Below, piece after piece: positions 6,631 to 9,029 of a stretch of 64,000 nt of DNA. The notes beneath the pieces are model-generated. The model saw only the letters and a list, made by a program, of their open reading frames with translations. It had not been told where the DNA came from and ran no database searches. Every line of letters begins with the position of its first letter. Within the stretch, counting starts at the first letter, position 1. The stretch is from Candidatus Thioglobus sp. (GTDB lineage: Bacteria; Pseudomonadota; Gammaproteobacteria; Arenicellales; UBA868): positions 1-64,000 of the forward strand of contig SHBR01000006.1 of the NCBI GenBank assembly GCA_004212795.1, given 5' to 3'. The position numbers were made by a program, and so were the translations under genes.

Positions 6631-7473
6631 ATGATTTCACTACAACCCCCAGAAGGAATCGCTTTACAGGTCCGCGAAGCCCTTGCTGAAGATATCGGTG
6701 ACGGCGATTTAACGGCGAGGCTAGTTGATGCAGACCAGGTCTTTAACGCGACATTAATCAGTCGTGAGCCCGCAATTGTCTGCGGAGGTCCCTGGATTAC
6801 AGCAGTCTTCAAACAACTCGATCCCAGTATTGAGATTGAATTTCTACTGCAAGATTCCGATCGCATTGAGGCAATGCAGACCTGGTGCACTCTAAAAGGC
6901 CCCGCGCGGGCTCTCCTGACAGGAGAGCGAACGGCCCTAAATTTCGCTCAGGTCCTTGCAGGAACTGCAACCGCAACCCAAATAATGGTCGATGAAATTG
7001 CCAACACTCGTGCGCAATTATTAGACACCCGAAAAACGGTACCGGGATTGCGAGCAGCCCAGAAATATGCAGTCCGGTGTGGCGGGGGTATGAACCATAG
7101 AATAGGGCTTTATGACGGCATCTTAGTCAAAGAAAATCATATCCGCGCCGCAGGCTCGATTGAAAACGCAATAAATCTTGCATTAAAAAATACAAAAGGT
7201 GTGGCACTGGTTGAGATTGAAGTTGAAAATCTCAGTGAATTTTCGCAAGCACTTAACGCTGGCGCCAAACGAATTTTGCTCGACAACTTTTCCACCGCCG
7301 AGCTAAAAAAAGCCGTGGGCCTGAATAATGGACAGGCCAAATTAGAAGCTTCGGGTAACGTCAACCGGCAGACGATTAGAGCAATTGCAGACACCGGCGT
7401 GAACTTTATCTCTTGCGGTCAAATCACCAAAGATATAAAGGCCGTTGACCTAAGTCTTCAGTTTTCCACCTGA
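6631..7473 (+). CDS. nadC: Nicotinate-nucleotide diphosphorylase (quinolinate phosphoribosyltransferase)
   Basis: Converts quinolinate and PRPP to nicotinate mononucleotide in de novo NAD synthesis. The 280 residues carry the family blocks: LAEDIGDGDLTA near the N terminus, GERTALNF, DTRKTVPGLR with catalytic Arg/Lys, GGGMNHRIGLYDGILVKENH, the IEVEN block, and LEASGNV near the end. It starts 153 bases from the divergent clpB. Its last 16 bases overlap the end of the convergent TlpA-like gene. NadE, the last enzyme of the pathway, is encoded at 11578-13191. Confidence 0.97.
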   Translation: MISLQPPEGIALQVREALAEDIGDGDLTARLVDADQVFNATLISREPAIVCGGPWITAVFKQLDPSIEIEFLLQDSDRIEAMQTWCTLKGPARALLTGERTALNFAQVLAGTATATQIMVDEIANTRAQLLDTRKTVPGLRAAQKYAVRCGGGMNHRIGLYDGILVKENHIRAAGSIENAINLALKNTKGVALVEIEVENLSEFSQALNAGAKRILLDNFSTAELKKAVGLNNGQAKLEASGNVNRQTIRAIADTGVNFISCGQITKDIKAVDLSLQFST

Positions 7474-7949
7474 GCATCAAGCTCCAATAACCAGCGCTCA
7501 AGTTGATTTGCCGTTACAGGCCCTATATGCGTTTTCAGAAGTTCACCGGTCGACGATAAAACAAACGTTGAGGGCAAGCCCTTTAACGGTTCCATCGGGA
7601 TGAGCGGCTCATCGCCGATCAACAACACTGGATAATTTATGTTGAGTTCCTCAGCAAAATCCCGAATCTGATCAACCGGTGTTTTTTCGAAAGCGATGCC
7701 AATGACTTCAATCCTGTCGCCGAACGTGTTTCGAAATTCAATGAGATCCGGAATCTCCCGAATACATGGTCCACACCACGTCGCCCAAAAGTTCACAAAC
7801 AATAACCGACCCTGATAGTCAGAAATTTGTTTATTTTCGCCATAAATATCAACTAACTCATAATCAATGGGCGCAGCTGACCCATAAATAGGGCTCAAAC
7901 TAATAACCCAAGCCAAAAGCACCGATCGAATTAGTTGATTGCGTTTCAT
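7458..7949 (-). CDS. TlpA/ResA-like exported thioredoxin-fold protein
   Basis: Predicted periplasmic thiol-disulphide oxidoreductase of 163 residues. An N-terminal signal or anchor (basic start, hydrophobic 8-24, possible cleavage after GSAA) precedes an AhpC/TSA-TlpA fold with FVNFWATWCGPC (51-62), so the CxxC is C59-C62. A cis-proline is likely at LKGLPST (about 133-139). TlpA/ResA proteins usually reduce disulphides in cytochrome c or other exported proteins. The neighbours on the other side of the divergent spacer are an exported cysteine-rich peptide and an exported rhodanese, which are plausible but unproven partners. No strong ribosome-binding site is visible. Confidence 0.9.
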   Translation of the reverse strand: MKRNQLIRSVLLAWVISLSPIYGSAAPIDYELVDIYGENKQISDYQGRLLFVNFWATWCGPCIREIPDLIEFRNTFGDRIEVIGIAFEKTPVDQIRDFAEELNINYPVLLIGDEPLIPMEPLKGLPSTFVLSSTGELLKTHIGPVTANQLERWLLELDAQVEN

Positions 7950-8070
7950 CAGTATTACTATTTATGTTTTAGGATACCCCAAATGACATGAACGAGATCA
8001 AACGTCGCACTGGCAATAGATTAGCGTTTTTAATACATTTGAGGTATTAATCAACATTCCAAAAAGCAAA

Positions 8071-8262
8071 ATGGCCAAAAAATCAAACTTCGTCATGGCT
8101 TTTCTTATTAGCTCCTTGCTAGTATCAACCCTAACGCTTGCGGATGGTCCTCCCGCAGGCGGAGACGCGGACGCTTGGTGTGAAGCAAATCAAAATGCCT
8201 GCGTCACATGGTGTGAAACACACCCGGACGAAGAGATCTGTCAGGAGCCTGAGTGCGACTAG
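8071..8262 (+). CDS. Small exported acidic cysteine-rich protein, unrecognised
   Basis: 63 residues. Residues 1-24 look like a Sec signal peptide (Lys-rich start, hydrophobic 7-20, TLA before Asp25). The mature 39 residues have five cysteines (37, 44, 48, 57, 62), two Trp-Cys pairs (36-37 and 47-48), 11 acidic residues and no Lys or Arg. I recognise no family. It precedes the exported rhodanese by 66 bases on the same strand, and the odd cysteine count suggests a partner or a reactive thiol. No clear ribosome-binding site precedes the ATG. Another overlapping frame is open, but only this one gives a signal peptide. Metal or sulphur binding is a guess. Confidence 0.65.
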   Translation: MAKKSNFVMAFLISSLLVSTLTLADGPPAGGDADAWCEANQNACVTWCETHPDEEICQEPECD

Positions 8263-8328
8263 GATTCCAGACAAGATGAACTCGATAGTTTGTTGTAACC
8301 ACCAAAACCATAACCAAAGGAGATTAGT

Positions 8329-8976
8329 TTGAAGACTCTCAAAATAGTACTCGGAGGAATGCTGAGCATGGCGCTGTTAGGGCCTGTCTCTGCAAACAAG
8401 CCGGTTGGTATCTGGGGCGACCAGATGGAAGTGACCGTGACCCATAACGGAACCTCAACTGATATCACGCGTAACCAGGACAACAAGAATACGGTCAATC
8501 CGGCATTCGCAAAAACCTCGCGTCCTTGCCCGCCTTTTTGCATTCAGCCAGCCGTCTTGGCACCGGGCGTCGAAACAATCGCAGAGCGTGAACTCATGCA
8601 TTACGCAGAGATGATGAGTAATGGTGACTCTTCAATTATTGTCATCGACTCTCGAACTCCGAACTGGGTGGCTAAAGGCACTATTCCAAGCGCGATCAAT
8701 GTGCCTTGGACCAGTCTGAATCCCGCTAAAGGGGCGACTCCAATTGATATCGCAGAGATTATGCAGTCGGTTTTTAATGTGACCGAAAGCGAAGGTCTTT
8801 TTGACTTTTCCGATGCCAAAACTGCAGTCATGTTCTGCAACGGCATGTGGTGCGGTCAATCGCCGAACAATATCAAAAACTTGCTTAAATTCGGATATCC
8901 CGCCCATAAAATCAAGTGGTATCGTGGTGGTATGCAGGATTGGGAGATCTTGGGCCTGAGCACAGCCAAACCTTAA
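8329..8976 (+). CDS. Exported rhodanese-domain protein
   Basis: 215 residues, starting at TTG with AAAGGAG six bases upstream. A signal peptide (1-22, ending VSA) implies a periplasmic location. Residues 75-212 form a rhodanese domain: IVIDSRTPNWVAKGTIPSAIN is split as VIDSRT (105-110) and GTIPSAINVPW (117-127), and the active-site loop begins at Cys170 (CNGMWCGQS). The loop has a second Cys (175), and a C-x3-C pair (67, 71) lies before the domain. Rhodaneses move sulphane sulphur between thiols; the substrate is unknown. It is probably cotranscribed with the cysteine-rich peptide and ends at a strong terminator. Confidence 0.88.
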   Translation: MKTLKIVLGGMLSMALLGPVSANKPVGIWGDQMEVTVTHNGTSTDITRNQDNKNTVNPAFAKTSRPCPPFCIQPAVLAPGVETIAERELMHYAEMMSNGDSSIIVIDSRTPNWVAKGTIPSAINVPWTSLNPAKGATPIDIAEIMQSVFNVTESEGLFDFSDAKTAVMFCNGMWCGQSPNNIKNLLKFGYPAHKIKWYRGGMQDWEILGLSTAKP

Positions 8977-9000: not shown

Positions 9001-9029
9001 AAAAAGGCGGGGCTTAGCCCCGCCTTTTT
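9001..9029. terminator. Bidirectional rho-independent terminator
   Basis: A perfect 13-bp inverted repeat (A5-GGCGGGGC / GCCCCGCC-T5) with a TTA loop lies between the convergent rhodanese and pgeF genes. A and T runs on both sides suit termination in both directions. Confidence 0.93.

Follow-up and report, generated by a model that had tools for sequence, protein, structure and literature searches.

The window, a stretch of 64,000 nucleotides from Candidatus Thioglobus sp., carries a short gene (8071-8262, plus strand; ATG start, 63 aa) followed after a gap of 66 bases by a rhodanese gene (8329-8976, plus strand; TTG start, 215 aa). Beside the pair lies a divergent gene for a TlpA/ResA-like thioredoxin (7458-7949, minus strand), assigned with Pfam and NCBIfam models and carrying the motif FWATWCGPC, as an earlier sequence-only reading of this DNA had described. 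A ribosome-binding-site-like AAAGGAG (8316-8322, plus strand) precedes the rhodanese gene, no terminator-like hairpin was found between the peptide and rhodanese genes, and a strong terminator-like hairpin predicted at 9001-9029 (plus strand) would close the two-gene unit. The host genome is gammaproteobacterial, 2.04 Mb in size and 78% complete; a single contig holds both its soxB and its dsrA, no more than 10 kb from each other and away from the window (G000:C34:17145-26940), soxY is also present, and soxC was not found in this incomplete assembly.

The encoded peptide opens with a hydrophobic, signal-type N-terminus, a likely signal peptide (residues 1-24; 8071-8142, plus strand) that hydropathy, an A-x-A-type end and the alignment would place before a cut at about TLA/D; export of the peptides, like that of the rhodanese with its hydrophobic N-terminus, was judged from hydropathy alone. 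The mature part, 39 aa from D25, contains five Cys spaced as WC-x6-C-x3-C-x8-C-x4-C with two Trp-Cys pairs, 11 Asp/Glu, one His and neither Lys nor Arg, so the residue counts of the sequence-only reading were exact. Four of these Cys fall in a predicted helical head (residues 36-57; 8176-8241, plus strand) that the alignment marks as lineage-specific, and AlphaFold2 predicts two helices over residues 31-60 with a pLDDT of about 81-85, a model in which the four Cys plausibly form two disulfides and leave the tail Cys free. The gene ends with the tail QEPECD (8242-8259, plus strand), in which Cys62 is penultimate. No sulfur carrier fold is recognizable in the peptide.

The 63-codon frame is a real gene. 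Among 80 rhodanese relatives (65-100% identity) taken from GTDB genomes, nearly all of them gammaproteobacterial MAGs, an upstream peptide frame is present in nearly all close relatives, and its mature part is under strong purifying selection, with a pooled divergence of 0.82 per synonymous and 0.16 per nonsynonymous site and a median dN/dS of 0.07 over 25 usable pairs. Loss of the frame in relatives, or a lack of purifying selection, had been named beforehand as what would refute the proposed exported thiol unit, and neither was found.

The conserved core of the family, as read from aligned sequences, is the C-terminal E-P-[DE]-C-[DE] and not the Cys-rich middle. In 64 distinct peptides encoded beside the rhodanese, the tail Cys and the [DE] before it are invariant (64/64 each), and Pro and Glu are each kept in 63/64; the Cys is followed by one Asp/Glu in 58/64, by nothing in 5/64, where it is terminal, and by a CDE end in 1/64. 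No other Cys is shared by all the mature peptides, and 12 of the 64 contain none besides it; the median net charge of the set is -10. The five-Cys version is confined to the nearest lineages (19 distinct peptides), outside which the middle is an acidic, low-complexity linker of variable sequence and length. The Cys-rich middle was therefore rejected as a defining feature, and the five-Cys pattern once proposed for finding relatives describes the nearest lineages only, most members lacking such a middle. Searches of the tail peptides against Pfam and NCBIfam matched no model, including any known RiPP or metal-binding peptide family, the best being DUF7707 below its cut-off, and a literature search with the tail letters, which left most subscription journals outside its coverage, returned nothing relevant and no description of the tail. 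This small gene family is recognizable solely by a tail of about five residues and is unmatched in the two curated family libraries searched.

The rhodanese belongs to PF00581 (E 1.7e-11) and lies far from every curated subfamily model; its assignment as a PQQ-associated CXXCW protein (TIGR03865) was rejected at 23 bits against a cut-off of 128. The two Cys noted earlier in its active-site loop CNGMWCGQ (8836-8859, plus strand) are Cys170, the invariant catalytic residue, and Cys175, and a second pair had been overlooked, Cys67/Cys71 of CPPFC (8527-8541, plus strand) within RPCPPFCIQP; both pairs are invariant in the rhodanese alignments. No solved-structure homologue of the rhodanese profile was found at E 1e-5, and Foldseek matches of a mediocre AlphaFold model (pLDDT 71.5) were weak and meaningless (NAMPT) and were set aside. 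We call the enzyme SoxL-like because a 64%-identical relative (L126, in G002), which has no peptide, sits in a soxA-SAXB/SoxK-like-rhodanese-soxB order that corresponds to soxAKL, where soxA matches TIGR04484, soxB matches TIGR04486 and the SAXB/SoxK-like gene is picked up by NF052674 below its cut-off; the name is thus a putative one, given by synteny. Three further loci (L026, L028 and L029; one is from a Ca. Thioglobus bin) have soxB immediately ahead of the peptide and rhodanese genes, as confirmed with TIGR04486 in L026, the only one of the three on which the model was run (5e-243), and in L058 the pair is followed by soxX-soxY-soxZ-soxA. In the window itself, no sox gene adjoins the rhodanese.

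The tail is tightly linked to this enzyme. Within the 80 loci, its strict form was found ahead of 63 of the 77 rhodanese genes, while not one of the 720 other ORFs (at least 150 aa) has it upstream; a degenerate DNA pattern of the tail has a single match in the whole host genome, the window peptide. An unselected survey across the class gave 21 tail matches in 16 of 321 gammaproteobacterial genomes, compared with six for the reversed-pattern controls; 12 of the 21 sit directly upstream of a rhodanese, the rhodaneses having been located independently by profile in 63 of the 321 genomes, and most of the remaining matches are again short, signal-bearing, exported-looking peptides. Among the individual cases, the G048 match lies at a contig end and a rhodanese opens another contig, one G153 match ends in TGG and not in a stop, and the G074 match, which may be due to chance, falls in a Pro/Ala-rich frame truncated where its contig begins. 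A relaxed search of upstream frames added variant tails. One of them, upstream of the rhodanese in L148 (G124:C6), belongs to a lipoprotein form with an LWGC lipobox and the end LEDDC, whose sequence suggests membrane tethering. In a phylum sample of 349 genomes, three further matches were obtained beyond the gammaproteobacterial group, two of them in frames of just 16 and 19 residues and the third closing one of 418 residues; with a similar number from the reversed-pattern control, occurrence of the tail outside the group was rejected as chance-like.

The pairing extends to a second protein type. In G088 and G137, a tail peptide directly precedes an exported-looking DsrE-like protein, the G137 protein matching PF02635 and the G088 protein being 64% identical to it, and G137 also has a peptide-rhodanese pair about 6 kb away from this set. 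The coordinates of the two DsrE-like genes are L139:8291-8755 (minus strand) and L142:9220-9654 (plus strand). In L052, the gene after the rhodanese is DsrE-like.

When 139 rhodaneses were placed in a tree, those with the peptide made up one large clade, in which it is missing here and there, and the more distant rhodaneses lack it except for L165, so the peptide is a frequent but not obligatory companion. It is absent upstream of 14 of the 77 close rhodaneses, about a fifth, which implies that the enzyme can work without it. Rhodanese distances differ slightly between envelope and alignment starts, with the same conclusions. The pair also occurs beside genes for a PLP-dependent decarboxylase (lysA-like), an FtsX-type permease, DAHP synthase and sigma-54 regulators; with neighbours this varied, mere inheritance of gene order does not account for the pair having persisted.

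Among the neighbours, the functional types that recur serve sulfur transfer or thiol redox. Genes of the thioredoxin fold, of whichever type, occur near 29 of the 80 loci, TlpA types lying upstream in about 21 and other thioredoxin types, examples of which were identified by Pfam, beside the pair in the remainder. TlpA was therefore rejected as an obligatory partner, being frequent but not constant, and the earlier inclusion of TlpA in a fixed set does not hold.

Genomes with these genes share a pathway background. SoxY is found in 60 of the 63 genomes with the rhodanese and in 108 of the 258 others (Fisher p 4e-16). Within a set of 80 genomes, 21 with the peptide and 59 others, dsrA occurs in 19/21 versus 33/59 (p 0.007), soxC in 1/21 versus 19/59 (p 0.017), and dsrA without soxC in 18/21 versus 29/59 (p 0.004). 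These p values are only indicative because the genomes share ancestry and are not independent; the peptide genomes span only 15 families, some are incomplete, and the grouping was made partly by hand, with G048 placed by its contig break, G088 by its DsrE-type set only and three genomes by variant tails. Peptide carriers are thus mostly rDsr-positive and SoxC-negative, the combination of the pathway in which sulfane sulfur stays unoxidized on SoxY and has to be passed on.

A Sox system lacking SoxCD, with oxidation completed in the cytoplasm, is common among sulfur oxidizers, and how the sulfur on SoxY reaches the next step is regarded as unknown or solved only in part (PMC11582611, PMC3368242). 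For Allochromatium vinosum, a proposal has SoxL take the place of SoxCD by carrying SoxY sulfur to globules (PMC3368242). In the model organism H. denitrificans, onward transfer to the cytoplasm is described as occurring "by unknown means", and SoxT is not a general importer (PMC11582611).

Against this background, we propose that the peptide is a small periplasmic acceptor and carrier of sulfane sulfur that works with the SoxL-like rhodanese through a mobile C-terminal Cys arm, a reading to which we give an even chance. The exported, acidic peptide, probably disordered outside its optional head, would present E-P-[DE]-C-[DE] as a mobile arm. In truncated Sox systems lacking SoxCD, the rhodanese would take over the thiosulfate sulfur left on SoxY, a step proposed for SoxL, and hand it as a persulfide to the tail Cys. 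This Cys would carry it on to sulfur stores, to an exported DsrE-like protein or, by import through the membrane, to cytoplasmic rDsr, and thioredoxin-fold neighbours such as TlpA would maintain the tail thiol in its reduced state or set the sulfur free. The gene, its conservation, its linkage and its co-occurrence with the pathway are demonstrated; in this scheme we infer the export of the peptide, the persulfide on its tail Cys, the direction of transfer and the partners. The findings agree with a small exported acceptor that has one reactive Cys on its mobile arm and serves two unrelated sulfurtransferase folds. The more specific proposal, that this new family of exported peptides with a C-terminal Cys is a periplasmic shuttle leading from SoxY via SoxL to globules, DsrE-like acceptors or import, we hold only tentatively. 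If true, many gammaproteobacterial sulfur oxidizers would have in this shuttle the missing link that joins truncated Sox to oxidation by cytoplasmic rDsr. The peptide, short, recognizable and genetically tractable and tied to SoxL, soxB, soxYZ and DsrE-like genes, is a concrete candidate carrier, and its tail provides a simple DNA pattern for finding it.

Several described proteins share parts of this profile. The rhodanese resembles SoxL of the A. vinosum soxXAKL cluster as an exported-type rhodanese of sulfur oxidizers, a likeness drawn from synteny and not from the A. vinosum sequence, but in the window and most relatives it lies outside a sox cluster with a tail peptide before it. Like SoxY, the peptide is probably exported, acts in the same pathway as far as context suggests and has its conserved Cys on a presumably flexible arm at the C-terminal end; unlike SoxY with its GGCGG arm, it is about 60 aa long, ends in an acidic EP[DE]C[DE] tail and is not a family member, neither the SoxY fold (PF13501/TIGR04488) nor GGCGG being found in the peptides with Pfam and NCBIfam. 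DsrC has its carrier Cys near the C-terminus. The peptide is similar to components of the DsrC/TusA/DsrE relay in this placement and in sometimes preceding a DsrE-like protein, whereas those proteins are cytoplasmic and folded and show no homology to it. SoxK/SAXB, the SoxAX-binding protein, is likewise small and exported and is encoded immediately ahead of the rhodanese in sox clusters, but NF052674 picks up the L126 protein and not the tail peptides. SoxS/DsbA-like thiol-disulfide proteins have been proposed to release sulfur from SoxYZ (PMC11582611), a role that context alone would parallel for the TlpA neighbour, although the latter is ResA/TlpA-like and not constant. As a correction to the earlier reading, which knew of no described system of this form, the rhodanese does have a context: it is SoxL-like by the synteny of its 64%-identical relative, so the set belongs to truncated Sox and is no isolated new unit.

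The main rival to the carrier reading is a docking or redox-regulatory subunit, in which the acidic tail would dock into or regulate the rhodanese (or DsrE), for example by forming a redox-sensitive disulfide with CPPFC or with the active-site loop, TlpA keeping the tail reduced. The tight pairing with the rhodanese, its two invariant Cys pairs, the thioredoxin-fold neighbours near 29 of 80 loci and the short, invariant, docking-motif-like tail all argue for it, but of 50 rhodaneses that lack the peptide 45 still have CPPFC, and the tail is found before DsrE-like proteins too, whose fold is a different one, so a subunit role restricted to the rhodanese is insufficient. We regard this explanation as rather unlikely.

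Binding of copper or zinc through acidic and Cys residues, for periplasmic delivery or buffering, would suit an acidic, exported-looking peptide that has five Cys in the window lineage; it is improbable given the single Cys of twelve distinct peptides and the neighbourhood, in which sulfur-transfer or thiol-redox genes recur but genes for metal transporters, chaperones or metalloregulators were not seen to do so. The persulfide- or metal-handling unit envisaged earlier is, taken as a whole, partly supported: its core, a thiol/persulfide unit with the peptide as carrier or substrate, is strengthened by the links to sox, DsrE and rDsr, and the metal part finds no supporting neighbour. There is similarly little to recommend a surface or sulfur-globule-associated structural protein anchoring the transfer enzyme at the deposition site: the acidic, low-complexity linker of variable length and the occurrence in rDsr bacteria would agree with it, but it is the tail that is conserved and not the linker, and the described sulfur globule proteins are Gly/Tyr-rich and are not known to be Cys-tailed. 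A RiPP precursor with the tail as its modified core, suggested by a short exported-looking precursor with an invariant C-terminal motif and by exported RiPP precursors such as bufferins, is highly improbable, as no modifying enzyme was seen to recur beside the peptide and no RiPP model in Pfam or NCBIfam matched.

Besides the carrier candidate, other neighbours of these rhodaneses were noted. In L036, a regulator lies 764-2122 nt after the rhodanese start on the minus strand, with similar ones in L051, L077 and L127; these are PAS-domain sigma-54 activators convergent with the rhodanese gene, the L036 protein is Cys-rich (CCHRVEHQSDVPCSKLGQECPL), and they could sense sulfur or thiols. A putatively exported protein follows the rhodanese and a thioredoxin gene at L062:4345-4899 (plus strand) and in L076, L082 and L085-L087; it has no Pfam match and by eye resembles DsrE-like proteins. 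Finally, rhodaneses of a more distant subfamily, with profile scores of about 196-224, are preceded by a small, exported-looking partner of their own, about 108-181 aa long (L181:1137-1505, plus strand; L169, L172-L177 and L183), which gave no Pfam match for the two tested and in most loci carries a YLDxLExEA-like motif, possibly representing a second rhodanese-partner family.
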